56,639 bases of DNA from an uncultured Opitutales bacterium. Lineage in GTDB: Bacteria; Verrucomicrobiota; Verrucomicrobiia; Opitutales; Seribacteraceae. Each line of letters starts with the position of its first letter. The stretch's first letter is position 1. The notes beneath the pieces were generated by a model, which worked only from the letters and a program-made list of their open reading frames with translations, had not been told where the DNA came from and ran no database searches. Below are positions 1,391-56,639 of this stretch, in pieces. The translations under genes were made by a program, and so were the position numbers. The stretch is from positions 1-56,639 of the forward strand of contig CAJQKB010000089.1 in NCBI GenBank assembly GCA_905478775.1, given 5' to 3'.

Positions 1391-1795
1391 ATGCATGAAG
1401 AAAACAGTAGGGTTAATAAAAATTTCAGTACCGATCATTTAGACCCAGAACAAAATAATATTTGCTGCGGGGGGGGTACCGAACGAGCATTTTCTGGAAA
1501 ATATTGGGACTGTAAGAAAGTAGGAACTTACGACTGCGTGGTCTGCAACTCGCCGCTTTTCTTATCCGGTACAAAATTTGACTCGGGTTCGGGTTGGCCC
1601 AGTTTCTATGAAGCTGTCTCTCCTGATTCTGTTACAATATTGGAAGATCGCAGTCATGGCATGGTTCGGGAAGAAGCTCTTTGTGGAAATTGTGGTTCGC
1701 ACCTAGGGCACCGCTTCCCTGATGGTCCTCAACCAACTGGTCAGAGATACTGCATCAATTCTGCCTCTCTTCATTTGGTTGAAGCCACTCAATAA
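1391..1795 (+). CDS. msrB: Peptide-methionine (R)-S-oxide reductase MsrB
   Basis: Reduces methionine-R-sulfoxide in oxidised proteins with thioredoxin as electron donor. The domain fills the protein: the [12 protein letters not shown] strand, [35 protein letters not shown], and the catalytic RYCINSASL with Cys121 counted from this ATG. Two CxxC pairs (49/52 and 98/101) form the structural zinc site. A TTG at 1382 in the same frame would add three residues; the ATG is preferred, and neither has a Shine-Dalgarno. A run of eight G (1469-1476) encodes part of a Cys-Gly-Gly-Gly stretch where homologues usually have a variable loop, and the frame remains correct through it. It sits 11 bp after the helicase and ends just before a strong terminator. 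Confidence 0.95.
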
Positions 1796-1824
1796 CACAT
1801 AATTTTACATTTATCTTCCCGCTA

Positions 1825-1845
1825 AACCGCTTCGGCGGTTTTTTT
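1825..1845 (+). terminator. Rho-independent terminator after msrB
   Basis: AACCGC, loop TTCG, GCGGTT, then a run of T to 1845. It is a GC-rich 6-bp stem with the very stable UUCG tetraloop and a U-tract, 30 bases after the msrB stop, in the right orientation to end the helicase-msrB transcript. It also lies just past the 3' end of the minus-strand lipoprotein gene, though the T-run serves only the plus strand. Confidence 0.9.
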
Positions 1846-1871
1846 GTGTCCAGTGCTCCCGGAAAAAAAAC

Positions 1872-2036
1872 TTATTTAGAAGATCCGATGGACAAATCGT
1901 GAACGGATTCCGAGGAGATTTCTTTTTCTTCTGTCCAATCTACGACTGTTCGGACAGGTAGAGTCACCACTCGTGTGCATCCAGAAAAAAAGAGTGCATA
2001 GAGGATAGTAATGGTTATGAAAAGAAACTTGCCCAT
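1872..2036 (-). CDS. Small predicted lipoprotein, unknown function
   Basis: A 54-residue product starting MGKFLFITITIL, with a hydrophobic signal segment and the lipobox FSGC at about residues 18-21. Signal peptidase II would cut before the Cys, leaving a mature lipoprotein of only about 34 residues that begins CTRVVTLPVRTVVDWT and ends in an acidic, Ser-rich tail. The frame extends upstream to 2078, but those extra 14 residues are charged and would spoil a signal peptide, so the internal ATG is chosen. No Shine-Dalgarno is visible. It stands alone on the minus strand between the msrB terminator and the DUF445 gene. The family is not recognised. Confidence 0.6.
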   Translation of the reverse strand: MGKFLFITITILYALFFSGCTRVVTLPVRTVVDWTEEKEISSESVHDLSIGSSK

Positions 2037-2143
2037 AGTTATTAACCATAGTAAATCCGAACGCTCCGCAACTATCAATTTATCTTAGTAGCGCATCTCT
2101 CCCCATTTAATTTAAATAGTAACCAGCCAAGAAAAACATATCA

Positions 2144-2749
2144 ATGCCTCCAATTCTTTTATTACTTCCTGTAATTGCATCTCTCATCGGATGGTTTACC
2201 AATTATCTAGCAGTTAAAATGTTATTTCATCCCCGCATCCCATTCCGTTTTTTGGGGGTTTCTATTCAGGGCGTGTTTCCCAAGAGACAAAAACAATTGG
2301 CAGAAAAATTGGGAACATTAGTAGCAGAAGAACTTTTTTCGATCCAAGAGGTAACTCTTAAATTAAAGGAACTGGCCACAAGCGAAGAATCCATGGACCT
2401 TGTAGGAAAGAGGATCGAAAAGACGATTAGAGAGAAACTCGTAAAAAGTTTTCCGATGCTCGCTATGTTTCTGACCGATGATATGGTTGAAAAAGTAACC
2501 AATTTATTCAAGGCCGAACTGCAAGATTTCCTTGGTGAATCGGCACAAGATATTGGCAATAAACTAGAGGAAAGTTTAGATATAAAAGAATTAGTTCGTG
2601 AAAAAGTGGAAGCATTCTCCTCTGATAAGCTGGAAGAAATTCTATTTTCAATCATGCGAAAAGAATTCCGTTTTATCGAAATGATCGGGGCAGTGCTAGG
2701 ATTTTTGATTGGCTGCGTACAGGTAGGGTTAACCTTAATCGCCACCTAA
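2144..2749 (+). CDS. DUF445 family membrane protein
   Basis: A 201-residue protein with a hydrophobic N-terminal segment (LLLLPVIASLIGWFTNYLAV), the DUF445 hallmark GWFTNYLAVKMLFHP near residues 16-30, the following GVFPKRQ, a long charged helical middle (about 45-175), and a second membrane segment at the C-terminus (FLIGCVQVGLTLIA). This is the short membrane-anchored type related to YheB/YtxM-like proteins, whose role is not established. The topology suggests two membrane helices bracketing a helical domain. It is followed 68 bp later by the MscS channel gene. Confidence 0.85.
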   Translation: MPPILLLLPVIASLIGWFTNYLAVKMLFHPRIPFRFLGVSIQGVFPKRQKQLAEKLGTLVAEELFSIQEVTLKLKELATSEESMDLVGKRIEKTIREKLVKSFPMLAMFLTDDMVEKVTNLFKAELQDFLGESAQDIGNKLEESLDIKELVREKVEAFSSDKLEEILFSIMRKEFRFIEMIGAVLGFLIGCVQVGLTLIAT

Positions 2750-2817
2750 GTGGACTCGGATAGAATTATTGCTTGTTGCATTATATCTCTTTAATTCATT
2801 CTTTAAATTAGAATAAG

Positions 2818-4131
2818 ATGAACACCGTACTGGCAAACTTGGATTGGGAAAACTGGAGAGAGTTTTGGTTGGATCCATCTATTCGTTTACAATTTGCAGT
2901 TCTTGCCGGGCTAATCGCTCTCGTCTTTATCCTAACCAGGATTACTAAGCCTCTTTGCGAGTCACTCTCAAATGCGGAAGGTAATAATGAGTTTAAGACA
3001 TTACTCTGGAGCAATGTTACCAGAATGGTCGCTCCCCTTTATTTATTGGTTTCCTGTCTATTGGCAGTTGCTTTGGTCGAGAGGTTTTCAATTTCTTCCC
3101 AGGAGTTAATTCGTCCCTTTACCAGTGCTGCAGGGGCATGGGCAACTTACCGAATGATATCGGGTTTTATAAAAAGCCGGGCTTGGCTACGTTTAATTGC
3201 AGTACTGGCATTTACTTTGGCGGCACTGCATAGCTTTGGACTACTAGAAACAACAATCGATTTGCTCAACTTACTTGCTTTTAATGTGGGTGACCGGCGA
3301 ATCTCAATACTCGATATCCTCAATGGTGGTTTAATTTTACTTGTATTACTATGGATTAGTTCTCTGCTTGGTAGTTCAGGTGAGAAGAAAATCAAAAAAC
3401 TGCCGCACTTACCTCCCTCCTTACAGGTTCTACTGGCAAAAATCCTACGGGTCATTCTTGTTTTTGTAAGTTTCGCGATTGCACTTTCCACTATTGGACT
3501 CGATCTATCATCCTTTGCCATCCTCGGTGGTGCCATTGGTGTGGGAATTGGTTTTGGATTGCAGAAAGTAGTTTCTAATTTGGTCAGTGGTTTAATTCTG
3601 CTCTTAGATCGTTCCATTAAACCTGGAGATGTAATTGAAATCGAAGGGACTTATGGTTGGATTAATTCATTGCGGGCCCGATACGCATCTGTAATCACAC
3701 GGGATGGGAAAGAACACCTAATTCCGAATGAAGATTTAATTACCAATCGGGTAATCAATTGGTCTTTTAGTGATCGTAATGTACGAGTACGAGTACCAAT
3801 CGGTATTTCTTATAATGCGGACCCACGAAAAGCGATTGCGCTTTGTTTGGAGGCTGCTCACTCCACTAGCAGGACCCTGCAAAGTCCTGAACCCAAGTGC
3901 TTAGTGATTGGTTTTGGAGATAATTCAATTGATTTAGAACTTCGATTTTGGATTGATGATCCTTCGAACGGTGTGGGGAATGTAAGAAGCGAAGTGCTTC
4001 TGGCAGTTTGGGACCGTTTTCAGAAAGAAGGAATTGATATTCCTTTTCCGCAAAGAGACATTCATGTTTCTGGACTTTCTCCCAAAATTATTTCAGCAAT
4101 CCAAGAAGACACGAATAACGACTCCCCTTAA
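2818..4131 (+). CDS. MscS-family small-conductance mechanosensitive channel
   Basis: A 437-residue inner-membrane channel that opens under membrane tension to release solutes during osmotic downshock. The N-terminal half (about 20-225) carries several hydrophobic helices beyond the three of E. coli MscS. The pore helix and beta domain are unmistakable: GGAIGVGIGFGLQKVVSN from about residue 237, DRSIKPGDVIEIEG, then RDGKEHLIPNEDLITNRVINWS. The alpha/beta cytoplasmic cage domain follows to the end (FRFPQRDIH-like region reading PFPQRDIHV). The Gly/Ala-rich pore helix pattern is conserved. It lies between the DUF445 gene and yajC; the linkage probably has no functional meaning. Confidence 0.95.
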   Translation: MNTVLANLDWENWREFWLDPSIRLQFAVLAGLIALVFILTRITKPLCESLSNAEGNNEFKTLLWSNVTRMVAPLYLLVSCLLAVALVERFSISSQELIRPFTSAAGAWATYRMISGFIKSRAWLRLIAVLAFTLAALHSFGLLETTIDLLNLLAFNVGDRRISILDILNGGLILLVLLWISSLLGSSGEKKIKKLPHLPPSLQVLLAKILRVILVFVSFAIALSTIGLDLSSFAILGGAIGVGIGFGLQKVVSNLVSGLILLLDRSIKPGDVIEIEGTYGWINSLRARYASVITRDGKEHLIPNEDLITNRVINWSFSDRNVRVRVPIGISYNADPRKAIALCLEAAHSTSRTLQSPEPKCLVIGFGDNSIDLELRFWIDDPSNGVGNVRSEVLLAVWDRFQKEGIDIPFPQRDIHVSGLSPKIISAIQEDTNNDSP

Positions 4132-37555: not shown

Positions 37556-38401
37556 GTGAAATTTAACCTTACAGAATATTGGACCCATAACTTAAGCCCT
37601 TTTCTCGTTCAATTCCCGGCTCCTTATGATGATTGGGGCCCAGGTGGAATTAGATGGTATGGCATCGCCTATTTATGTGGCTTTATTGCTGCAGGAATGA
37701 TTTTAAGATTGGCCTGGAAACGTGGACGTAGTCCCTATGACCCAGAGCAAATCATGAACCTGATGACTTTTCAAATCCTCGGCGTTCTAATTGGTGGTCG
37801 AGTTGGTTATGCGATTCTATATCAGGGATCAAAACTAATAGAAGACCCTCTTATAATACTCAGAGTTTGGGAAGGCGGAATGGCTAGTCATGGAGGATTC
37901 GTTGGGGTATGTATTGCTACACTGTGGTACGCTAGGCACTCAAAACAATCTCCTTTTCCCATTGGTGATTTAATTGTAAGTATCGTGCCTCCGGGTATTT
38001 TTTTTGGAAGAATAGCTAATTTCATTAACGGAGAACTATGGGGTAAAACCACAGAGATTTCCTTTGGCGTTCTATTTCCAAAAGCACCTGACTTTATAAT
38101 TGGAGTAGCAAGGCATCCGTCTCAAATATATGCGGCACTATTGGAGGGTCTGATTCCATTTATTTATGTTCAATGGCGATTTTGGAAAACTGATATAACC
38201 AAAAAGTGCCCAGGCCATTTAACGGGGGAATTTCTATTTCTTTATTCGGTAGGAAGAATTACCAATGAATTGTTTAGAGAACCAGACGCCTCATTGATTT
38301 TAGGAATGTCTAGGGGCCAATTTTATTCCATTTTTCTAGCAATAGGTGGAATTTTTCTTATCTACCTAGCCAAGAGAAAAACTTCACAATATCAAAATTA
38401 A
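37556..38401 (+). CDS. lgt: Prolipoprotein diacylglyceryl transferase
   Basis: Transfers diacylglyceryl from phosphatidylglycerol to the lipobox cysteine of prolipoproteins, the first step of lipoprotein maturation. The 281-residue integral membrane protein has RWYGIAYLCGFIAAG, GGRVGYAILY, WEGGMASHGGFVG, the signature GRIANFINGELWGK and ARHPSQIYAALLEGL, then FREPD. In this window its substrates would include the lipoproteins at 1872-2036 and 10621-10899. The start is a GTG one base after GGAG, an abnormally short spacing also seen for the gene upstream; no better in-frame start exists. Confidence 0.96.
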   Translation: MKFNLTEYWTHNLSPFLVQFPAPYDDWGPGGIRWYGIAYLCGFIAAGMILRLAWKRGRSPYDPEQIMNLMTFQILGVLIGGRVGYAILYQGSKLIEDPLIILRVWEGGMASHGGFVGVCIATLWYARHSKQSPFPIGDLIVSIVPPGIFFGRIANFINGELWGKTTEISFGVLFPKAPDFIIGVARHPSQIYAALLEGLIPFIYVQWRFWKTDITKKCPGHLTGEFLFLYSVGRITNELFREPDASLILGMSRGQFYSIFLAIGGIFLIYLAKRKTSQYQN

Positions 38402-44092: not shown

Positions 44093-47000
44093 CTACTTCG
44101 AAGTCATTACATAGACTCCATCCCAATCGCTACCAGGAGGATTTTCTTTCATTATATTGCAACGGTCGATCAAAATAATAGAGGGATTATCGGCGACTCC
44201 AGGAGTAACTCCAGGTTTATTGGGCTCCAGAGTCTTTGCCTTTTCAAACATCCCCAATGCACCATCCCAATCCTGTAGTAAGTATTTATCAATTCCTTGC
44301 TTGAAGCAATCAAGGCAATCTTGGGTTTCTTGTGTGAGCTCAGACATGAAACCAGTAGGTTCAAACATCGCAACCGGTTGTTTTCTACCTTTAACTACTA
44401 TTCTATCCAAATAACGAAATGCAATATCATCCCGTGTTTTTTCAGAGGCAAGTTTAGTTTCTTCAGTAATCATGATGTACGCACCGTAGGCTTTTGCACC
44501 ACTTTCACAACGAGCAGCTAAGTTAACCATGTCACCCATCATAGTATAGTTAAATCGATCCAACGCACCCATATTACCAACAGTTGCAGTTCCCGTATTG
44601 CAGCCTATGCGAGTCTGCATTTTTGAAACTAGTCCATGGCATTTACCCCATTTATCTTCTTCGTAGGACCATTTCTCACGTAACTTAATTTGTTCCTGTT
44701 GCATCAAAATTGCAGTTTTCACTGATTGGTAAGCATGATCTTTCATTGGAATCGGAGCTCCATACATTGCCACGATAGCATCACCAATATATTTATCTAA
44801 TGTACCCCGTTCCTCCTGCAATATGTTTGTCATAGCAGTTAGATATTCATTCATTAAATCAACCAAGCCGGTAGGACTAAGAAGTTCAGAAAAGCTAGAG
44901 AAAGCCTGAACATCGCTAAAAAATGCAGTTATTGCAGTTTCTTGGCCCCCTAAGGAAGGTTCCTCTCCAGATTCGACCATTTGGTCCACTAACTCAGAAG
45001 AAACATAACTCCCAAACATACCCTTGAGCCTGCCCTTTGCTTTTTGTTCAATAACTACCATAATAGCCAAGCCGATAAAAGAGGTGCTAATCCCAGCACA
45101 GGCGGGAGCCGTAATTGGCCAAACAACGTGTGAATTTGAAAAAGTTACAAAACCAAAAAATATATAGCCAAGAAGTAGTACAATGCCAACGATGCTGGAA
45201 CGACTTCCCTGACAAACAGCAAGAAATGCCATAATTAAACACACGCCTAAAGTAGCGGCATGGTCAATCTCCTTGCCCAGTCTTTTAATATAAAGTCCAG
45301 ATGTGAGGGTTTTGATCAAATTACCATGAACTCCCACTTTTGGTGCGGAAGATTTATCAAATGGCGTGGGAGCTAAGTCTTGAAAAGTAGCTTCCTCTGG
45401 CCCAATTAAGACGATCGCATTATTAAAACGTGAAAAGAAATCTTGAATCCTTAGAAGTTCTTCCTGCTGGATCGCAAGATTCGTTTTGTTTGTTACAATG
45501 GCCTCTTCTACCTGATTTTTTTGGTTCAATAGTTTTTGATTCTTAGGGTTTTGCTTTAAAGCATTAGAAATTGCCCCTAGGACAGTTGGGCCTTCCAATT
45601 TTTCGATTTGTTCTTCAATAGACAGCATCGATGATTTAACTTGTTCTAAAAATCTACTATTTTGAATTACATCTCGCATTCCACACATTGGGTTATATTG
45701 GGATTCAAGTGAGGTTGGAATGAAGTAATATGAAATCGCCTCGATCACCGACATAAAATCATCAAAGGGAGGAATTTCATTAACTGGTATTTGTTTTGCC
45801 AAAAGCTTTCTTGCAATCTGCACTTCCACTTCCTCAATTCCAATGGTTGACATCAGGTCAGGGTAGTTACTTGGGTCCTCGGGCAGTTCGATGTCTTTTA
45901 ATTTACTCAAGAAAATTTTCAAGATTTTAGGCACAAGTGATAAATATTGATCAAAATCGTCATCTCCATATGCCCTTTTGGCCTCCATAACTAAAATTTT
46001 CTCAGGTAATTTCTCGGACCAACCAGAAAACCAATTAACCTCTAAAAACTGCTTTTCTTCAAGGGGGGCATCAATGATAGGCGTGCCATCTCGACCAATT
46101 ATTGTAAACCGTAGATTATCTTCCGATATTTTGACATGCTGGTGGTCCAAACCATAGTAAGCGAGCAGGGACTCTACTCCCAGTGTATAAACAGGTCGAT
46201 TTCTCAGTAAAGGTAACTCATTGGGAAATGAATCAACTAACTCACCTATCCCTTCATCTCCCAATGCTCTTGTATATACGAGGCGAAGTGTACTATTGGT
46301 CTCAATTAATTCTGTAGAAGCTTTTCCCTCAATCCTATTAATCCTGACTCGCTTTATTGATTCAATCGAACTTAAATGATCAAACTTTTCTTGTAAGCTG
46401 TTCATCTCAGTGGATGTTGCATTCAAGTCAATTGCGAGGGATTCTAAGTGCTTAGATTTTTCCTTCACTTCAATTTTCAATCTATTAATCATTTGATTCT
46501 GTTCTTTGGAGGACATAACAGTAATCGAAGATTCATTTGCAGCTGATATTTCTTCACTGATGGCTTTTATCTCATTTTCTTTCGCATCAATTTGTGGTTT
46601 CAAAACAGTTGATAGAACCGGATTTGCTTCTAACGCGGTTTTTAAATTCGTGAGTACGTCATTTTGATTTTTAAGCTCTGCTCTTGCTTTTTTAAAATTA
46701 AAGCTCCGAGTCGGCAAACTTTGCCTAAGGCTCAGAACTTCATTATTTTTCAAATCAATTTGCGGTTGAATAATTCCAGAAATCGAGGGATTGGCAGAAA
46801 GTGTACTTTCTAGGTTTAGTATTACTCTTTCTAATTCCTTTATTTGCTCTTCTATTTCTACAATTTCATTTTGACTCATTTCACCTGAACTCCTTCGAGC
46901 TAATAGGCTTTGGAAAAATTCATTTATTTTTTCTTGTCGAGAATCTATTTGCGGTTGAATCACAGCACTCAATGCAGGGTTTGCTTTCAATGTTGAAGAA

Positions 47001-48031
47001 AAATTCTTCACACTGTCTGAAAGTTCTTGGTAGATACTCAGGTCTGCGATCAATAAATTGTAGTTTTTCTTAGCCAATTTTATTTTTTCGACTTGTTGAC
47101 TGATTTTAGGTTTGAAAGAATCTAATTGTTTCAGAACTTCGCTTTTTTGAACTGATAAGATTTTTAATTCGGTTTGCAGTGCAGAATACTCCTCTTTGTT
47201 TTCTCCCAACATTTCGAAAGGAAGTTTGCTTTGCTTTCCCCCCAGCAAATTATATGCATGTGCCTTCCCACCTCCAGGAAACCATAATGGCACCCATCTG
47301 GGAATATTATCAACTGCTGGTTTGTTCTCACCAGGAAAACCATACCGATAAGGAGGAACGGTAAATGAACCAGTCCGTCCCATGTAACGACCATTAAGAT
47401 AATTCTGGAGTGGGTATGTCGGTGATTCAGGGTAGTTAAACTTACTACTCCTCATTGCAGATTCATGCGAATAACCATCTTTGAATAATGGAGGAAACGC
47501 ACTTGCCCCAGTTATTTTTACAAATGAAGTGGGCACGCCGGAATATAAACAACCTAGTACTACCTGATCGGGATAAGCTTTTATTAATTCTCCCATAGCA
47601 GAGTCACTTCGATATGAATTTTCCATAGGAACCATCTTAGACATACTCTTGGGTGTGAAACCAAAATCAAAAGCCAAAACTCTTGCACCTCCTTTTTTCA
47701 TTAAAGCCATTGACATATCTCGAAAAAAAGCACGATCCCAAGGTCTTTCCCCCACATCGTCCATTGCTAATGTCGCTGCATCAAAATTAACATAAACGAT
47801 CTTAGGAACTTTGGGAATTGTTTGATTACCCTCTATTTCAATTTCTTCTGGTGCAGCACTCTGGTGAGAAATCTCTCCCCGAGAACCTGGTATGACTGAG
47901 CTTAATCTTAAATCAATCGATTTGGTCTTCCAACTATCTATCAGACCAAAGTGGTTCACGATGATCCAAATAATTGGAATAATAAGTAACCCGAGGAAAG
48001 TTATTTTTGATTCTTTGCTTAATTTAAACAT
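44093..48031 (-). CDS. CHASE2-domain class III adenylate/guanylate cyclase with large coiled-coil insert
   Basis: A 1312-residue membrane sensor-cyclase. An N-terminal helix (about 10-26) precedes a huge extracytoplasmic CHASE2 region (about 28-925). Three membrane helices at about 927-990 lead to the cyclase domain (about 1020-1200), with metal ligands Asp1040 (FFSDVQAF) and Asp1084 (KYIGDAIVAMYGAP), 44 apart as in active cyclases, and the NYTMMGDMVNLAARCE motif. A C-terminal TPR-like tail ends DWDGVYVMTSK, typical of CHASE2 cyclases. Between the two halves of CHASE2 lies a 300-residue coiled coil carrying three near-repeats of (T/A)L-x-ANP-x-(L/I)S-x-(V/I)-x-PQID at about residues 343, 409 and 466, with a weaker copy near 820. 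It should make cAMP in response to an unknown extracytoplasmic signal. Confidence 0.92.
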   Translation of the reverse strand: MFKLSKESKITFLGLLIIPIIWIIVNHFGLIDSWKTKSIDLRLSSVIPGSRGEISHQSAAPEEIEIEGNQTIPKVPKIVYVNFDAATLAMDDVGERPWDRAFFRDMSMALMKKGGARVLAFDFGFTPKSMSKMVPMENSYRSDSAMGELIKAYPDQVVLGCLYSGVPTSFVKITGASAFPPLFKDGYSHESAMRSSKFNYPESPTYPLQNYLNGRYMGRTGSFTVPPYRYGFPGENKPAVDNIPRWVPLWFPGGGKAHAYNLLGGKQSKLPFEMLGENKEEYSALQTELKILSVQKSEVLKQLDSFKPKISQQVEKIKLAKKNYNLLIADLSIYQELSDSVKNFSSTLKANPALSAVIQPQIDSRQEKINEFFQSLLARRSSGEMSQNEIVEIEEQIKELERVILNLESTLSANPSISGIIQPQIDLKNNEVLSLRQSLPTRSFNFKKARAELKNQNDVLTNLKTALEANPVLSTVLKPQIDAKENEIKAISEEISAANESSITVMSSKEQNQMINRLKIEVKEKSKHLESLAIDLNATSTEMNSLQEKFDHLSSIESIKRVRINRIEGKASTELIETNSTLRLVYTRALGDEGIGELVDSFPNELPLLRNRPVYTLGVESLLAYYGLDHQHVKISEDNLRFTIIGRDGTPIIDAPLEEKQFLEVNWFSGWSEKLPEKILVMEAKRAYGDDDFDQYLSLVPKILKIFLSKLKDIELPEDPSNYPDLMSTIGIEEVEVQIARKLLAKQIPVNEIPPFDDFMSVIEAISYYFIPTSLESQYNPMCGMRDVIQNSRFLEQVKSSMLSIEEQIEKLEGPTVLGAISNALKQNPKNQKLLNQKNQVEEAIVTNKTNLAIQQEELLRIQDFFSRFNNAIVLIGPEEATFQDLAPTPFDKSSAPKVGVHGNLIKTLTSGLYIKRLGKEIDHAATLGVCLIMAFLAVCQGSRSSIVGIVLLLGYIFFGFVTFSNSHVVWPITAPACAGISTSFIGLAIMVVIEQKAKGRLKGMFGSYVSSELVDQMVESGEEPSLGGQETAITAFFSDVQAFSSFSELLSPTGLVDLMNEYLTAMTNILQEERGTLDKYIGDAIVAMYGAPIPMKDHAYQSVKTAILMQQEQIKLREKWSYEEDKWGKCHGLVSKMQTRIGCNTGTATVGNMGALDRFNYTMMGDMVNLAARCESGAKAYGAYIMITEETKLASEKTRDDIAFRYLDRIVVKGRKQPVAMFEPTGFMSELTQETQDCLDCFKQGIDKYLLQDWDGALGMFEKAKTLEPNKPGVTPGVADNPSIILIDRCNIMKENPPGSDWDGVYVMTSK

Positions 48032-48191: not shown

Positions 48192-49211
48192 ATGACAATC
48201 AATCAATCTGAAAATATCGTGCAACCTCCCGCTCCAGAAGAACAAGAGCGCATCCGCAATGAAGCATCATGGGTAGAACTGCTGAGGCAAGAGATGGGAA
48301 AGGTTATTGTTGGCCAAAAATACCTTGTCGATCGTCTTATTATTGGTCTGCTTGCTAATGGTCATGTACTGCTCGAGGGAGTACCTGGTCTCGCGAAAAC
48401 TTTAGCAGTTAAAACTTTAGCCAAGTGTATGAAAGCGGAGTTCAAAAGAATTCAATTTACACCTGATCTGTTACCCGCTGATGTTGTGGGAACCCTTATA
48501 TATAGCCCCAACAAGGGGGAATTCACTACGAAAAAAGGTCCTATATTTACAAACTTACTGTTAGCCGATGAAATTAACCGGGCTCCTGCAAAAGTCCAGA
48601 GTGCTCTCCTCGAAGGAATGCAAGAAAGACAAGTAACGATCGGGGATGAAACATTTATGCTGCCCAAGCCATTTCTAGTTCTTGCCACTGAGAATCCGAT
48701 CGATCAAGAAGGCACCTACCCCTTACCGGAAGCTCAAATGGATCGATTCATGCTTAAATTATTGGTTGATTATCCGGATAGAGAAGAAGAGTTAAAAATT
48801 CTGGACTCGAATGCGAATGTAAGCGTGGAGCATGAAGTCAGTCCAGTGGTAGATGCGGAGACGATTTTTCGCTCAAGAACCCTGATTGACAGTATATATT
48901 TGGATGAAAAGTTAAAAGGGTATTTGGTAGATGTTGTACTTGCCACACGGAATCCTGAAAAATATGGAGCTTCAGAACTCAGTGCTTTTATTCGTTTTGG
49001 AGCATCGCCCCGGGCAACGATAAGTTTGGCTCTTGCTTCCAAAGCAGCAGCATTTATGCAGGGGCGCAGTTTTGTTACCCCACAAGATATTAAGGATATC
49101 GGGTTAGATGTACTGCGACATCGGGTCATTATAAGTTATGAAGCCGAGGCGGAAAATGTGTCCAGTGACGACATCATTAAAAAGATTTTTGAAACAGTCC
49201 CTGTTCCTTGA
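48192..49211 (+). CDS. MoxR-family AAA+ ATPase
   Basis: A 339-residue chaperone-like AAA ATPase. MGKVIVGQKYLVDRL, Walker A as GVPGLAKT (about 62-69), Walker B as LLADEINRAPAKVQSALLEGMQERQVTIGDE, ATENPIDQEGTYPLPEAQMDRFML with the sensor and Arg-finger region, and a C-terminal lid (PRATISLALASKAAAFMQGR, DVLRHRVIISYEAE) are all typical. It starts the moxR-DUF58-DUF4381-bat operon and diverges from the CHASE2 cyclase over a 160-bp AT-rich gap. MoxR proteins are thought to help mature VWA-domain partners, several of which follow. Confidence 0.96.
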   Translation: MTINQSENIVQPPAPEEQERIRNEASWVELLRQEMGKVIVGQKYLVDRLIIGLLANGHVLLEGVPGLAKTLAVKTLAKCMKAEFKRIQFTPDLLPADVVGTLIYSPNKGEFTTKKGPIFTNLLLADEINRAPAKVQSALLEGMQERQVTIGDETFMLPKPFLVLATENPIDQEGTYPLPEAQMDRFMLKLLVDYPDREEELKILDSNANVSVEHEVSPVVDAETIFRSRTLIDSIYLDEKLKGYLVDVVLATRNPEKYGASELSAFIRFGASPRATISLALASKAAAFMQGRSFVTPQDIKDIGLDVLRHRVIISYEAEAENVSSDDIIKKIFETVPVP

Positions 49212-49251: not shown

Positions 49252-50184
49252 ATGGAGGAACCCGATCAGGAGTTTACCCGGGAAATACTTCGTAAGGTAA
49301 GGCAAATTGAAATTCGCTCTAATCGACTGGTTTCTGAGGCATTAGCGGGATCCTACCACAGTGCGTTTAAAGGCCAAGGTATCGACTTTGAAGAAGTGAG
49401 AGAATATCAACCTGGAGACGAGGTACGATCTATTGATTGGAATGTGACTGCAAAAATGGGTTTTCCCTTCGTCAAGCAGTACCGTGAAGAGCGAGAATTA
49501 ACTATCCTCCTTGCCATTGATATAAGTAAGAGTACCCAATGGGGTTCCACTCATAGAAGTAAGAGAGATAAATTAGCGGAACTGGGTGCTCTCTTAGCTT
49601 TTTCTGCAAACCGAAATGGAGATAAAGTTGGATTGCTACTATTTTCCGATCAAGTTGAAAAATTCCTGCCCCCTGCAAAAGGACAAAAACATGTACTTCG
49701 AGTATTGCGTGAAATACTGTTCCACCAAAATCATGGAAGTGGTACAGATTTAAATGAAGGCCTCCGTTTCCTCAATCGGGTAATGCGAAGAAGAGCTGTG
49801 GTTTTTCTTATGTCCGATTTTATTATTCCAGAATATGACTCCGAGGAAGAAACAAGGGAAGATTTATTCCTCAAAGAACTGGCAACTACTCGTAGAAAAC
49901 ATGACCTGGTCTGCTGCCAAGTTCACGATTCAATGGAAAAAGAGTTACCATCTGTCGGCCGGGTTATTTTTGAAGATTCTGAAACAGGGGAAACAAAACT
50001 GATTAATACCTCAGACAAAAGATTCCAATCGCAGTACAAAACCCACACAAAAGACATCCAAGAATCATTTGCCCGCCAGTTACGAAGAAGAGGAATCGAT
50101 AATTTTGAATTTTCCACTTCCTCCGACTATGCGAAGACACTCCAAGAGTTTTTTAACACCCGAGGAAATAGAATAAAGAGATGA
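49252..50184 (+). CDS. DUF58 domain protein of the MoxR-Bat cluster
   Basis: A 310-residue protein with the DUF58 hallmark FKGQGIDFEEVREYQPGDEVRSIDWNVTAKMG (about 44-75), followed by a VWA-like domain with MIDAS residues in LLAIDISKST (DxSxS pattern), GSGTDLNEGL and VFLMSDFI. No membrane segment is present, unlike the longer DUF58 proteins. It lies 40 bp after moxR, and its stop overlaps the following ATG by 4 bp. It is probably a cytoplasmic partner of the MoxR ATPase; the biochemical role is not known. Confidence 0.93.
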   Translation: MEEPDQEFTREILRKVRQIEIRSNRLVSEALAGSYHSAFKGQGIDFEEVREYQPGDEVRSIDWNVTAKMGFPFVKQYREERELTILLAIDISKSTQWGSTHRSKRDKLAELGALLAFSANRNGDKVGLLLFSDQVEKFLPPAKGQKHVLRVLREILFHQNHGSGTDLNEGLRFLNRVMRRRAVVFLMSDFIIPEYDSEEETREDLFLKELATTRRKHDLVCCQVHDSMEKELPSVGRVIFEDSETGETKLINTSDKRFQSQYKTHTKDIQESFARQLRRRGIDNFEFSTSSDYAKTLQEFFNTRGNRIKR

Positions 50185-50780
50185 TGATTAATTCCCTATC
50201 CTTGTTATTGAATAAAGGCTATTTATTAGAGCAAAATCGAGAACAGGATTCTCCCATTCCAATATTTAAAACATTCGGTCAATTACTTGAAGAAAATGCT
50301 TTGCCGATCTCTGTTGTCTTTATTTTTTTGCTCCTTGTTGCTTTAATTTTGATTGTTTTAAAGAAGAAGAAAAAAATGAAAACAGACCTTAATGAACCGG
50401 AACCAATCGACCCATTTGAGGAGGCACTTTCATGTATTGAAACCCTGCAGTCGCAACGTCCGCCATTAAGTGCCAAGCCATTTGTATTTCGTCTTTCTGA
50501 AATCCTGAGGATTTATGTAGAAAGAGTATTTAAAGTCCCTGCTATGGAGTTAACCGGGGAGGAATTCATGAAAGAAATTGCGTCGCATAGTTTTTTCAAG
50601 AATCGATATGATCAAAGCCTTCGTGAGTTTATCGACCAAGGTGACCAAATCAAATATTCAAAAGAAAAAACGGATGATGGCCAAATGTCACTCCTGCTTG
50701 ATACCGCACTCCATTTTGTTAAGGACACTCATGCCAAAATGCTAGAAAAAGAAAAAATTGCTCATCCCGTTCAATCATAA
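50181..50780 (+). CDS. DUF4381-like membrane protein of the Bat cluster
   Basis: A 199-residue protein with an N-terminal extracytoplasmic segment of about 40 residues, one membrane helix (ISVVFIFLLLVALILIVL), a KKKKKMK stop-transfer, and a cytoplasmic helical domain (about 75-195: FRLSEILRIYVERVFKVPAMELTGEEFMKEIASHSFF, REFIDQGDQIKYSKEK). This arrangement, between DUF58 and the first VWA gene, is where DUF4381 proteins occur in MoxR-Bat operons. The start overlaps the DUF58 stop by 4 bp (ATGA). The function is not known. Confidence 0.78.
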   Translation: MMINSLSLLLNKGYLLEQNREQDSPIPIFKTFGQLLEENALPISVVFIFLLLVALILIVLKKKKKMKTDLNEPEPIDPFEEALSCIETLQSQRPPLSAKPFVFRLSEILRIYVERVFKVPAMELTGEEFMKEIASHSFFKNRYDQSLREFIDQGDQIKYSKEKTDDGQMSLLLDTALHFVKDTHAKMLEKEKIAHPVQS

Positions 50781-50785
50781 ATTTA

Positions 50786-51847
50786 ATGGAATATTTTCAG
50801 GAATGGCATAAAATTTCACTAGCCGAACCGCTTTGGCTACTGCTGCTATTACTCATTCCTCTTATTTTTTGGGCACAGACTAAAACGAAGCGAAAGAATT
50901 CATCCTTACTTTTTGCTACACTCTCTCGAATCAATGCAAGCCATCTCCCCCAATCTGACTACTCAAGAATAATTATCCCATTTCTGAGAATTGGATCCCT
51001 CTCCTGCCTCGCCGTCACACTTTCAAAACCGCAGTTTGATAGAAGTACCAGCTCCCTCGTATCCAGTGGAGTGGATATTGTCCTAGCGATTGATCTCTCC
51101 GCTTCCATGTTAGCCTTAGACATGAGCGAAAATGAACAAAATGAAGTTACTCGATTAGATGTAGTAAAAGAAGTGATTAAGGATTTTGTAAATAAGAGAA
51201 AAAATGACCGAATTGGATTAGTTGCTTTTTCTGTTAATCCATATCTTGTCAGTGCTCTTACATTAGACAGCGAGCATTTACAGAAAAACATCGATCGTTT
51301 AAGGGTGGGTCTGACTCACCAAACAGGTACCAATATTGGATCGGCATTGGCGGAAGGTATCAATCGCCTGCGTACGCTTCAGTCAAAATCAAAAATTCTA
51401 ATTTTGTTAACCGATGGAAAAGATGAACCTCCTCCTCCGCATAGCCCACTCATTTATGCTGAGGGAGCAAGAAATGATGATATCAGTATTTACACTATTG
51501 CAATTGGTAGTGCGAGCAGGACGAGAACTTATCTTTTTGACCAACGCTCGCGCGATCTAATGAGGTATACAAATGGAAAGCCTGTAGTCCAGGTTGCCGA
51601 TTACCCGGTCGATAAAGAAATCTTGCAAAAGATATCGGCTAAAACGAATGCCCGGTTTTACGAAGCCAAAAATAAAAGCGAACTATCTTCAATTTACGAC
51701 GAAATTGACCGACTCGAAAAAACTGAAGTTGAATTAAATATTAATGCTCTCTACGAGGAGCTTTTTCAATGGCCTCTCACACTCTCTATTTTCTTTTTAT
51801 TACTTGAAATTTTATTAAAACGAACCATTTTCCTCCGAATTCCATGA
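50786..51847 (+). CDS. batA: VWA-domain membrane protein BatA
   Basis: A 353-residue protein with two N-terminal hydrophobic segments (about 14-30 and 60-77), a von Willebrand A domain (about 90-305) and a C-terminal membrane helix (WPLTLSIFFLLLEILL). The MIDAS is complete: DIVLAIDLSASM, the Thr in GTNIGSALAEG, and the Asp in LLTDGKDEPPP. The AEPLWLLLLLLIPLIFW lead is typical of BatA. It sits 5 bp after the DUF4381-like gene and overlaps the next VWA gene by 4 bp. Bat proteins are linked to oxygen tolerance in Bacteroides; the molecular role is unproven. Confidence 0.92.
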   Translation: MEYFQEWHKISLAEPLWLLLLLLIPLIFWAQTKTKRKNSSLLFATLSRINASHLPQSDYSRIIIPFLRIGSLSCLAVTLSKPQFDRSTSSLVSSGVDIVLAIDLSASMLALDMSENEQNEVTRLDVVKEVIKDFVNKRKNDRIGLVAFSVNPYLVSALTLDSEHLQKNIDRLRVGLTHQTGTNIGSALAEGINRLRTLQSKSKILILLTDGKDEPPPPHSPLIYAEGARNDDISIYTIAIGSASRTRTYLFDQRSRDLMRYTNGKPVVQVADYPVDKEILQKISAKTNARFYEAKNKSELSSIYDEIDRLEKTEVELNINALYEELFQWPLTLSIFFLLLEILLKRTIFLRIP

Positions 51848-54246
51848 ATTTATTCGCGGATGAAAAAATTGTGTATTTAGGAGTTGTCATTCTCCTCCTC
51901 CTTTGCGTTCTGTATCGGTATTCTCAAAAAGCGAAACAAAAAAGACTCAAACTTTTAACCTCCTCTGAGTTGCTTCCCAAGTTAGTCCCCGGGTGGTCAA
52001 CCAAGCAACAAGTTTTTAAATTTGGCTTACTTTTACTTGCCATTGCCTTTCTCTTTATCGGACTTGCCAGACCACAATGGGGAGTAGAAAAGAGAAAGTC
52101 GAATCCTACTGGCATTGATATCTTGATCGCATTGGATGTATCGAAAAGCATGCTGGCAAGAGATGTTACGCCCAATCGATTAGAACGAGTAAAGCTTAGT
52201 ATTTCTAATCTTTTAGACCGGGTAACAGGAGATCGACTTGGCTTAATTGCCTTTTCAGGTTCGGCCTTTCTCCAATGCCCTTTGACTCTCGACCATCAAG
52301 CATTTATAAAAACATTAAACGATTTAGAGGTAGGCATAATCAAGAGACACGGGACTGATTTATCCCGACCAATTGAAGAAGCAATTCATTCATTTTCCAA
52401 AGATGATACCGATCGTTTTCTTATTTTACTATCTGACGGCGAAGACCTTGAAGGAAAAGGGTTAAAGCAAGCAAAAGAAGCGGCACAAAACGGAGTGAGA
52501 ATTTTCACTATTGGTATTGGTGCAAAAGAAGGCGCCCGTATTCCGATGGATCCAATCGGACAGGCACCAAGAAACTTTCTTCGGGACCCACAAGGAAAGA
52601 CAGTAATCAGCAAGATGGACGCAACATCCCTGCGGGCCATAGCAGAAGCAACCGAAGGAAGTTATTTTTCTCTAGGACCAACGGGAGAGGGATTGGCTAA
52701 AGTATTAGGTATTCTACAATCCATTGGTCAGCAAAAAAAACGGGAACATCTCTCCACCGAGTTACCTATTGATCGCTTTCAAATGTTCATTATGATCGGA
52801 CTTTGCCTGCTATGCTTAGAAATGCTAACCTCCAACAACTCGAGAAAACTCATCGTTACCGCTAATCAATGTATTGTTATACTGATTTGCTTTTTTACCG
52901 GTTGCCTTCAACAAGATAACATAAAACGAGCTGAAGAAGCGCTTGAGGAGGGAAAACCAAAAGTTGCTGCGGAATTCTTTGAAGCTGAAATAAACGCGAG
53001 TATTACACGTGAATCAGAGATCGATCCTCGGTTGTTCCTTAATGCAGGTTTAGCTTATTTAGATGCGGGCTTATTACAGGAATCGGAACTTTCATTGGAA
53101 AAAGCCCTCGACGCAAACCTGGACAATCCATCACTCCAAGCCATGGCACTGAATACCTTGGGAAATATATTTTATCAGAAGGCCAATCAATTCCTCGACC
53201 AACGGAATGTAATGGAAGCAAGAAAAGCATGGGAGAAATCAAAACAGCATTATGTTTCCTCATCACAAATTGACGGAAATGAAAAAGCCGTTCAAAACTT
53301 GGCGACCCTCAACCAACAAATTTCAGAGCGAATTAATGCGCTGATCTGTAAAATTTCTGGAAAAATTTGGCGCGATTTGAATGGCGATGGAAAACCACAA
53401 AAGAATGAACCGAACCTAAGCGGATTTATCTTTTGGGATAAAGATGGAAATGGTGAACACAACCAAACCACTGAACCCACTGTAGAAAGTAACGACCTGG
53501 GGATTTTTTCGTTCGAATGGATTTCTGATCGATACCCGACCTCACTACGATTAGGATCTCAACTTTCAGAATCTAACCAATCCAAAGGTACATTTTTGAT
53601 ACCCATGCTCCCTCCTCCACCACCACCGGAAAACCCTGCATTAGTAAAAAACTATTTCCTTAATTTTGAAAACCCAGGAGAAAAATTGATTGCCCTTCCC
53701 TATCGAGCAGCTCCCACACTACAAGGAAAAATATGGAAAGACGAAAATGGAAATGGGCAGAAAGATTCAGAAGACAAAGGCTTTGCCTCCGCGAAGTTAT
53801 TTTTGGACCAAAACGGAAATTTTCAACCGGATCAAAACGAAACTATTTTTGAACCCAATCAAGATGGCACTTTTATTCACCCAGTTCCTCCCGGACAATA
53901 CTCCCTGTGCATTCAACCTGAAAACCAAGACGCAAACATTACCTTTCCAATTGAAGAAAGAAAAGCCTACCTCACTTGGGTGGATTTTGAATCAGTTTCA
54001 CAAAATTTAGATTTTGGTATTCAAGATAACAGCCAAGAAGATCAAAATTCCTCCGATCAACAAAATCCTGCAACTCCACCTCCACCCTCGGAAAGCGAAG
54101 AAGATAACGAAAATTCAAATGAACCAGCTCCAGAAGAAGTGAATGCACTTTATGAAAGGCTGCTTCAGGAAATGGAATCGAAAAGCGAACCCTTAGAGCT
54201 AGAAGTTCAAGCCGTTCAATCAATCACATCCGGCAGGGACTATTGA
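51844..54246 (+). CDS. batB: BatB-BatC fusion with SdrD-like repeats
   Basis: An 800-residue chain joining parts that are usually separate. Residues 1-330 are BatB: two N-terminal helices, then a VWA domain with complete MIDAS (DILIALDVSKSM, GTDLSRPIEEA, LLSDGEDLEG). A membrane helix follows at about 315-335, then a second hydrophobic segment ending in the lipobox-like FFTGC (Cys354). Then come TPR-like helices (about 360-500, BatC-type) and two SdrD-B-like calcium-type modules starting GKIWRDLNGDGK (about 504) and GKIWKDENGNGQ (about 626). A Pro/Glu/Asn-rich tail ends the protein. The relic lipobox suggests fusion of a membrane protein with a former lipoprotein. The reading frame is open throughout. 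Confidence 0.88.
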   Translation: MNLFADEKIVYLGVVILLLLCVLYRYSQKAKQKRLKLLTSSELLPKLVPGWSTKQQVFKFGLLLLAIAFLFIGLARPQWGVEKRKSNPTGIDILIALDVSKSMLARDVTPNRLERVKLSISNLLDRVTGDRLGLIAFSGSAFLQCPLTLDHQAFIKTLNDLEVGIIKRHGTDLSRPIEEAIHSFSKDDTDRFLILLSDGEDLEGKGLKQAKEAAQNGVRIFTIGIGAKEGARIPMDPIGQAPRNFLRDPQGKTVISKMDATSLRAIAEATEGSYFSLGPTGEGLAKVLGILQSIGQQKKREHLSTELPIDRFQMFIMIGLCLLCLEMLTSNNSRKLIVTANQCIVILICFFTGCLQQDNIKRAEEALEEGKPKVAAEFFEAEINASITRESEIDPRLFLNAGLAYLDAGLLQESELSLEKALDANLDNPSLQAMALNTLGNIFYQKANQFLDQRNVMEARKAWEKSKQHYVSSSQIDGNEKAVQNLATLNQQISERINALICKISGKIWRDLNGDGKPQKNEPNLSGFIFWDKDGNGEHNQTTEPTVESNDLGIFSFEWISDRYPTSLRLGSQLSESNQSKGTFLIPMLPPPPPPENPALVKNYFLNFENPGEKLIALPYRAAPTLQGKIWKDENGNGQKDSEDKGFASAKLFLDQNGNFQPDQNETIFEPNQDGTFIHPVPPGQYSLCIQPENQDANITFPIEERKAYLTWVDFESVSQNLDFGIQDNSQEDQNSSDQQNPATPPPPSESEEDNENSNEPAPEEVNALYERLLQEMESKSEPLELEVQAVQSITSGRDY

Positions 54247-54250
54247 GCAC

Positions 54251-56077
54251 ATGGTAAAAAACGGTTCAACATTATCTATTCGTTCCCAATCCAAGCTTTG
54301 GATTATTTTATTTGTTTCGCTTCTACTGCCTGGCATAGAGGAAATTCATGGACAACAATTGCGAGTAGAATCAAGTTTTCAGCCCCCCTCCATCACAATT
54401 GCAAATAATTCTGTTTATAAAATTATTATCCATGGCAGTCAGGAAAACCCACAAGGTTCATTACCTCAAATACCTGGAATTTCAATTTCTAACTCACCAC
54501 AAACTTTTCGTTCTGCAAGTTTTATTAATGGAGTGCCTTCGGTTCGTTTAGAAATGAGCTTTCAAATAAAACCAAAAAAAATCGGCACTCATACAATCCC
54601 CCCATGGACCATAAAAGTTGGTTCAACTACCTTGCAGGTCCCAGGCAGTTCCATCAAGGTGGTTGCAGCAAACCAAGAAGATAAAATTAAACAGCAAGCA
54701 GAAGAAAGGCAAAAGGAAGACTTGAGCCAGGCTAGTTTTATAGAATTCATAAACCCTCGGAAATTTCTTTTTGAAGGAGAGACGGTCTCCGGACTGTTAA
54801 ACCTTTTCATTTGGGATCGATTACCAGTAAGCAGAATCGAAAGACCGCCCCAAAAGGAGGGAGATGCATTCTCTCTGACTGAACTTCGACAACCCCAAGA
54901 GAAAAGAAATCAAACTAAATACGGTAAGACTTACACCGTTTTTTCATGGCCAACAGGATTGACTGCAGCCATCGCAGGACAACAACAGATCCAATTTAAC
55001 ACTTCCATAAGGGTGCGAGTAAAATCACGTGGAAATTCTCCTTTCACGAGTCCTTTTTTCAATGATCCCTTTTTTGGATTTGGACGGGAAGAATCCCTCA
55101 CTGTTAAATCCGACCTAATCAATATTGAGGTAAGAGAACTCCCCATGATTGAGAGACCGGACTCCTTCCGAGGAGCGATAGGAAAATTTTCCTGCCGATC
55201 AATTCCCGATTCTGATCGAGTCTCACTAGGAGATCCGATCCGTTTAGTAGTTGAAATTACGGGTACTGGTAATTTTTCCGCAATGCCAGCACCTGTTCTC
55301 AATTCAAATAGTAATTTTAAAATTGGACCACCCGCATTTTCATTCGAAGGAAACGAGATTACGATGCACGAAGGAAAACAATTATTTGAATATATTTTAA
55401 CCCCCTTAAAACCAGGTTTAATTAGTATTCCGGTCATTACATTTTCCTATTTCGACCCGGCACGAGAAGAATATTTCACTTCAAAAACGAATAATCATCC
55501 ACTCCGAGTCGACCCTGGCGAAACATGGGTTGATCCCACTCCTGTTCAACAGCAAACTGAAACATCCGACTTTGCAGTTTCTACCACCGACTTATTTCAA
55601 ACTGAAAATGAACCGGGGGAATGGTTTCAAAATGTAAAACATAAAACAGCAATCAATTCCCAAGTTTTTTGGTCTCTACAGTCCATTCCACTTTTTTGTG
55701 CCATTGGTCTAGGGTTTTATGGATGGAAGCGAAAACAATCGGGTCGTGACCTCTTTCGTCAAAGGCAGTCTATTTTAAAGAAGCAAATGAAAGAAAGTAT
55801 AACATTTAATGATGCATCCCTGTTTTTTCGGGCAACCAGAGAAAGATTACGACTTGAAATCGGTACTTTTTACAAACACCCCAATCCATCGTCTTTATCA
55901 AGCAACGAGCTTACAACCCTTCTTCAAAGCAGTTCAAATGAAGAGGATACAATCTCAGAAATTGAAAAGATTCTTGAAATAAGCGACGACCATGAATTCG
56001 CAGGAACCTTGAAAGATCCACAGTCACTGGAGGATCTTTACAAACATATTAATAACCTGTTAAAGAAAATTCAATGA
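54251..56077 (+). CDS. batD: BatD-like oxygen-tolerance protein
   Basis: A 608-residue protein with an N-terminal signal segment (LWIILFVSLLLPGIEEIHGQ), a beta-sandwich-rich extracytoplasmic region (about 30-460) and a late membrane helix (about 474-492, SIPLFCAIGLGFYGW) before a cytoplasmic helical tail. BatD-type features are VESSFQPPSITIANNSVYKIIIHG at the start, SFQIKPKKIGTHTIPPWTIKV, FEGETVSGLLNLFI, and GDPIRLVVEITGTGNFSAMPAP followed by FEYILTPLKPGLISIPVITFSYFDP. It starts 4 bp after the BatB-C stop, and its stop overlaps the next ATG. Confidence 0.9.
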   Translation: MVKNGSTLSIRSQSKLWIILFVSLLLPGIEEIHGQQLRVESSFQPPSITIANNSVYKIIIHGSQENPQGSLPQIPGISISNSPQTFRSASFINGVPSVRLEMSFQIKPKKIGTHTIPPWTIKVGSTTLQVPGSSIKVVAANQEDKIKQQAEERQKEDLSQASFIEFINPRKFLFEGETVSGLLNLFIWDRLPVSRIERPPQKEGDAFSLTELRQPQEKRNQTKYGKTYTVFSWPTGLTAAIAGQQQIQFNTSIRVRVKSRGNSPFTSPFFNDPFFGFGREESLTVKSDLINIEVRELPMIERPDSFRGAIGKFSCRSIPDSDRVSLGDPIRLVVEITGTGNFSAMPAPVLNSNSNFKIGPPAFSFEGNEITMHEGKQLFEYILTPLKPGLISIPVITFSYFDPAREEYFTSKTNNHPLRVDPGETWVDPTPVQQQTETSDFAVSTTDLFQTENEPGEWFQNVKHKTAINSQVFWSLQSIPLFCAIGLGFYGWKRKQSGRDLFRQRQSILKKQMKESITFNDASLFFRATRERLRLEIGTFYKHPNPSSLSSNELTTLLQSSSNEEDTISEIEKILEISDDHEFAGTLKDPQSLEDLYKHINNLLKKIQ

Positions 56078-56639
56078 AACCGCGGATTGTCTTAACTCTT
56101 TTAGCTGTGATTAGCTTTCTCTCTTCACTTTTAATGGGGAGCGAGGAAGATCGTTTGTTTTACGATGGCGTACGGGCAGAAGCATCTGGAGACTTAGACC
56201 AGGCGGTTCATTTTTACTTACAGGCAGCAAAACTATCCCACTCTTCGAACCTGCATGGAAATTTAGCAAATCTTTATTTTAAGAAGGAACAATTTGGGCA
56301 TGCCATTTTACACTTTCGAAAAGCATTACTGTTAGAACCGACTAACAAGGAATTATCCATAAACCTTCAATTTGCCTATGAAATGGCTAAAACTCCTCCC
56401 CTGCCTAATGATTTTGCACACTCCTATTTTGCCAGTGATACTTTTTCCTTTTGGTGTGTTCTGTGCGCTGTCGTTTTCTGGTTTGGTTTTCTAGTATTTA
56501 TTTATTTATTTTTCTTCAATCCAAGCCGGGCTGTACTTTTCTATTTTACGATTGGATGGATTTTTTCAGGCGGACTCACCGGGTATGCAACCCACTTTTC
56601 TCACATTCAAAATTCCGAACTGCTTCGAGAAGGTATTGC
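56074..56639 (+). CDS. batE: BatE-like TPR membrane protein, partial
   Basis: The gene continues past the right edge; 188 full codons are visible. It begins MKPRIVLTLLAVISFLSSLL, a signal peptide, then a TPR pair (about 25-105: FYDGVRAEASGDLDQAVHFYLQAAKL, NLANLYFKKEQFGHAILHFRKALLLEP) and two membrane helices at about 125-150 and 155-175. This is the layout of BatE, whose SH3-like C-terminus would follow outside the window. The ATG overlaps the batD stop by 4 bp (ATGA), so it is the next gene of the Bat operon. The name rests on position plus domain order. Confidence 0.8.
   Translation, partial: MKPRIVLTLLAVISFLSSLLMGSEEDRLFYDGVRAEASGDLDQAVHFYLQAAKLSHSSNLHGNLANLYFKKEQFGHAILHFRKALLLEPTNKELSINLQFAYEMAKTPPLPNDFAHSYFASDTFSFWCVLCAVVFWFGFLVFIYLFFFNPSRAVLFYFTIGWIFSGGLTGYATHFSHIQNSELLREGI

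Follow-up and report, generated by a model that had tools for sequence, protein, structure and literature searches.

The window, that is, the whole stretch of 56,639 nucleotides that was analysed, comes from a draft genome (2.78 Mb, 185 contigs) of an uncultured Opitutales bacterium. It carries a complete moxR-DUF58-batA-batBC-batD-batE operon on the forward strand. Pfam matches identified moxR, encoding an AAA_3 ATPase (48192..49211), and the gene of a DUF58 protein (49252..50184). These are followed by the gene of a DUF4381-like membrane protein (50181..50780; weak Pfam match, E 0.009; the equivalent gene place in Vibrio is annotated DUF4381), batA (50786..51847), batBC (51844..54246), batD (54251..56077; Pfam BatD, E 1.8e-17), and the gene of a batE-like TPR protein (56074..56637) that extends beyond the end of the window. 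The batBC frame is open from the ATG at 51844, which the batA stop codon overlaps, to the stop codon at 54246, and it encodes 800 aa. On the strand opposite to the adjoining Bat operon, positions 44093-48031 encode a membrane protein of 1312 aa whose C-terminal part resembles adenylate cyclase; a coiled-coil-like insert in it contains a motif of the type L-x-A-NP-x-L-S-x-x-I-x-PQID three times.

The first part of BatBC has the layout of BatB and lies where batB is found in moxR-DUF58-batA-batB-batD operons. Two N-terminal membrane segments, TM1 and TM2 (51865..52071; about residues 8-25 and 56-76), gave a weak match to the Pfam BatA/aerotolerance N-terminal family and were present as helices in the AlphaFold model. 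They precede a VWA domain (52117..52533; residues 92-230; Pfam VWA_2, E 9.7e-15) with the MIDAS residues D98, S100, S102, T171, and D198, a call supported by their conservation. A single helix follows, TM3 (52777..52827; residues 312-328), which normally anchors BatB at its C-terminus. Among solved structures, BatB of Bacteroides thetaiotaomicron matched the full-length model best (3ibs, E 9.7e-13).

The BatC half and its SdrD_B-like modules

The C-terminal half contains a TPR domain (52924..53334; residues 361-497) placed directly after the BatB part and ahead of batD. The domain was weak in the window protein alone; TPR_2 matched in 31/31 relatives, and the fold of the region matched designed TPR proteins. 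A Leptospira BatC model matched this half weakly (E 6e-4).

Two SdrD_B-like modules come after the TPR domain. Module 1 (53350..53661; residues 503-606; loops D511-E522 and D532-E544) was recognised solely through its fold and loops, and module 2 (53719..54027; residues 626-728) has the loops D633-D644 and D655-E666. Pfam SdrD_B (PF17210) matched residues 629-692 with an E-value of 4.9e-6 in the full-length scan, where the score (27.1 bits) was below the cut-off of 29.7; the module region alone scored 32.4 bits, above the cut-off, and the same family matched in 31/31 relatives. The AlphaFold model of residues 498-730 (pLDDT 91, pTM 0.81) had its best solved match in SdrD A2-A3-B1-B2 (10ps, E 3.3e-10), the fold match being to B1-B2, and a sequence profile of the module region also found the Staphylococcus aureus SdrD entry 10ps in the PDB (E 3e-7). 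The original prediction of a single chain combining BatB, BatC-like TPRs, and SdrD-type modules was therefore borne out by the Pfam matches to VWA, TPR_2, and SdrD_B, and its SdrD resemblance by both profile and structure.

BatBC and the SdrD B domains share the fold and the DxDxDG calcium-loop pattern. Each BatBC module has two loops of this type, and the acidic or amide ligand positions of all four loops were kept in essentially all relatives. The modules probably bind calcium, as judged from these residues, and it is possible that the C-terminal half serves as a Ca-responsive arm of the Bat complex. The two proteins differ in that identity is about 17%, BatBC has two modules only, and SdrD is a wall-anchored Gram-positive adhesin, whereas BatBC is a predicted periplasmic Bat protein. 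Within the order sample, matches to the BatBC module region were confined to the window's family. In other Opitutales families (e.g., loci L044 and L089), fused BatBC proteins reach about 900-1000 aa without SdrD_B, in which the interval between the TPR domain and the tail is filled differently.

The modules are followed by a variable linker rich in Pro, Glu, and Gln (54028..54135; residues 729-764; 22% mean identity) and by a conserved tail (54136..54243; residues 765-800; NALYERLLQEMESKSEP... GRDY) with 82% identity over residues 765-782. The tail ended in RDY in 33 of the 36 relatives with a complete end, and fusions from other families ended in DW or NW in 32/41 cases. It thus shows Asp or Asn followed by an aromatic residue, a BatC mark that was defined in this analysis and is not a published one. 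BatC ends from Verrucomicrobiota, Gammaproteobacteria, and Bacteroidota, fused or separate, were mostly Asp, Asn, or Pro followed by Trp or Tyr (RDY, KDW, KNW, QPW). This conserved C-terminal motif may dock on another Bat protein. The combination of TPR domain, SdrD_B modules, and conserved tail identifies the C-terminal half as a true BatC, the modules lying between TPR and tail. One diverged family member (L031 in genome G025, 1501-3933) has lost both the GRDY end and, through S102A, a MIDAS serine of its BatB, yet retains the internal lipobox described below.

Distribution of the BatB-BatC fusion

The same unbroken frame was found in 36 other loci of the family, one of them from a near-identical genome (L032). 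Some families of the order, and one member of the window's family (G033), have separate genes, which could suggest that a lost stop codon or a mis-assembly joined two genes in this genome only; with a continuous frame in 37 family loci, assembly error is excluded and we give this explanation practically no weight. The artefact against which the original prediction had cautioned was therefore ruled out. Separate batB and batC genes, which it took as the norm, are not the only one, and the fusion is not exceptional, since fusions have been published (PMC3557215) and are widespread in Verrucomicrobiota.

BatB-BatC fusions have been reported for Leptospira biflexa, Francisella, and others (PMC3557215), and we also found them in records from Vibrio, Catenovulum, and a Rhizobium plasmid. 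As in BatBC, a VWA protein is continuous with a TPR protein inside a Bat operon in the L. biflexa-type fusions (PMC3557215). Within Verrucomicrobiota the fusions were dispersed, a quick BatB tree implying at least 10 switches between the fused and split states, and some families of Opitutales have separate batB and batC genes. The window's family formed one clade (SH-aLRT support 100) that was fused in all sampled members except G033. The BatB-BatC fusion is old and common. Two genomes had two batBC copies each (G016:C3, L039; G035:C28, L040); the copies in G016 were 56% and nearly 100% identical to that of the window, which may reflect mixed binning rather than paralogy.

In G033, which nests within the fused clade on the BatB tree, batB stops a few residues beyond TM3 (...STAKKSEY), and its stop codon overlaps the GTG start of a separate lipoprotein ORF with the signal MNTKLVSRSFFIFLILSGC. 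The split and the fusion are one base apart in a run of seven A, implying that the split is possibly a sequence error. A related genome whose junction holds a stop and a fresh start had been named as the case that would speak against the fusion; it was found this once, and the fusion in the window and its conservation stand. Whether the split is real or a sequence error, the G033 segment fits a lipoprotein signal, and it supports a real signal of this kind rather than refuting the fusion.

The internal lipoprotein signal

The junction of the two halves contains an internal lipoprotein signal (52849..52905, forward strand) with a hydrophobic core at about residues 336-350 and the lipobox F351-T352-G353-C354. 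The hydrophobic stretch closes with FFTGC, the Cys being residue 354 (codon 52903-52905), as originally read and as the frame directly gives it. Position -3 is Phe, versus the classical Leu, and is variable among relatives. Cys354 was invariant in 31/31 aligned fusions, and Gly353 nearly so (Gly or Ser at -1). The 17-residue core (336-352) had a mean identity of 18% among the 31 aligned relatives, the lowest of the membrane segments (TM3 44%, TM2 34%), and carried deletions in three of the sequences. Because Cys354 is invariant while the core drifts, we regard the lipobox as a selected signal peptide and neither a relic, as first proposed, nor a packed helix.

The loop preceding the signal was net positive in 30/31 relatives and neutral in one, and the stretch after Cys354 begins roughly neutral or acidic. 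The proposal that the second hydrophobic segment sets the topology of the C-terminal half was upheld by this charge, which places that half in the periplasm; the predicted orientation suits lipidation of Cys354. The source genome contains lgt, lspA, and lnt, with lgt, encoding prolipoprotein diacylglyceryl transferase, in the window itself (37640..38365, forward strand; PF01790, E 2.5e-60). A Pfam search of the genome gave no match for LolA, so no case could be made that BatC is sorted to the outer membrane. The segment thus has the positive n-region, hydrophobic core, and lipobox with invariant Cys of lipoproteins. The signal of a lipoprotein normally opens the translated chain, as it does only in G033; in the fusion it is internal (336-354), and BatBC was accordingly classed as a polyprotein working in the manner of a lipoprotein precursor rather than as a regular lipoprotein.

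Among 44 fusions from other Opitutales families, 42 had an [AVSTGLI]xA motif of the signal peptidase I type after the equivalent segment, compared with 12/44 after TM1 and 9/44 after TM3; the background in 12-residue windows was 29-36%. TM2 could not serve as a control, giving 1 or 42 of 44 depending on the window start, because its conserved ALA-RP end itself fits AxA; TM1, TM3, and the background windows were used instead. An AxA-type motif was also present in about 36 of about 47 further fusions from the phylum, where a simple script misplaced some segments. The Proteobacterial fusions examined have no SdrD_B modules, and in place of a lipobox their internal segment closes with a site of the AxA type (AWASA, VSAN, SASAF). 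Those separate batC genes of Opitutales that were readable had a signal-peptide-like stretch at the corresponding start. Internal signal peptides thus seem to be generally preserved, with a lipoprotein version in the window's family; no convincing internal lipobox was found beyond this family among the 44 order-level and about 47 phylum-level fusions. Since the families closest to it on the tree have fusions with a class I signal, the signal class probably changed while the genes were fused.

Probable processing of BatBC and its meaning

We consider it probable, from the sequence features above, that batBC encodes a polyprotein that is cut at the internal lipoprotein signal by Lgt and LspA into BatB and a membrane-anchored BatC. 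Residues 1 to about 330 would form BatB with TM1, TM2, a periplasmic VWA domain, and TM3. After a short positive cytoplasmic loop, the signal peptide (336-353) would re-enter the membrane, so that Cys354 reaches the periplasmic face, where Lgt would add diacylglycerol to it. LspA would then cleave between Gly353 and Cys354, either co- or post-translationally, and Lnt may N-acylate the new N-terminus. One product would be BatB, in which the used signal stays on as a fourth membrane helix; the other would be a lipoprotein BatC (354-800), presumably at 1:1 with BatB. BatC would comprise a TPR scaffold and the two probably Ca-binding SdrD_B modules, which might act as a rigid stalk, and its conserved C-terminal tail would presumably dock on other Bat proteins.

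Motifs alone do not prove cleavage, as the conserved ALA-RP that closes TM2 fits AxA too, and lineages that have long retained the fusion might need an uncut chain. Residues 336-353 could then be a plain fourth transmembrane helix, with the TPR domain and SdrD modules as a periplasmic arm of BatB and Cys354 either lipid-bearing or lipid-free. The L. biflexa fusion is depicted as one VWA and TPR protein (PMC3557215), the AlphaFold model shows a single helix spanning 333-354, and nearly all family members have kept the fused state. However, a plain anchor has no need for an invariant Cys next to a near-invariant Gly where it reaches the periplasm when its remainder drifts, and an uncut chain leaves unexplained the AxA sites at the equivalent place in other families and the lipoprotein signal of the split version in G033. 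We therefore regard the uncut chain as unlikely. Independent translation of BatC from an internal start, which would give two overlapping products, is far less likely still. The ATG at Met327-Met328 (about 52823) lies 27 residues ahead of the Cys, both in the window and in its nearest relatives. It would begin a plausible signal peptide, but it has no Shine-Dalgarno-like site. In six fused relatives, positions -40 to -12 relative to the Cys contained no ATG, GTG, or TTG, and none of the start codons before the Cys in the other fused relatives had a Shine-Dalgarno-like site. An internal start was accordingly rejected as a general source of BatC on account of the six relatives.

A broader reading, taken as a whole, we hold to be only a little likelier than its opposite. 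In it, Lgt and LspA would recognise a signal in mid-chain after three helices and release a lipoprotein at a fixed 1:1 ratio to its membrane partner, the fusions across Verrucomicrobiota and Proteobacteria would likewise be cut, and in the window's family the buried signal would have switched from signal peptidase I to II while fused. Internal cleavage is not discussed for the Leptospira fusion in the available text of PMC3557215. Separate BatC proteins of Bacteroidota and some Opitutales families resemble the BatC half: behind a signal peptide of their own they have TPRs, then a low-complexity stretch rich in charge, and an end of the DW/NW type; they differ in being encoded apart from batB and in that the signal peptide looked class I in those examined. 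In the FbcH cytochrome b/c1 polyprotein of Bradyrhizobium, too, an internal signal sequence comes after a membrane protein and is cut after synthesis; its signal is of the signal peptidase I type, however, the proteins are unrelated, and no lipid is involved. A literature search turned up no fitting precedent, neither an internal lipobox nor an FbcH-type case. The VWA force transducers of Verrucomicrobia (PMC12204202) were considered as a comparison and set aside, being a different VWA family that adjoins TolQ-like motors.

Bat proteins are widespread, and their molecular role is described as unresolved (PMC3557215). If BatB-BatC fusions are processed polyproteins, fused and separate Bat operons would yield identical parts, BatC would be periplasmic and, in the window's family, lipid-anchored, and the complex would have a built-in 1:1 stoichiometry. 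Processing at an internal lipoprotein signal would also be missed by signal-peptide predictors, which inspect N-termini.
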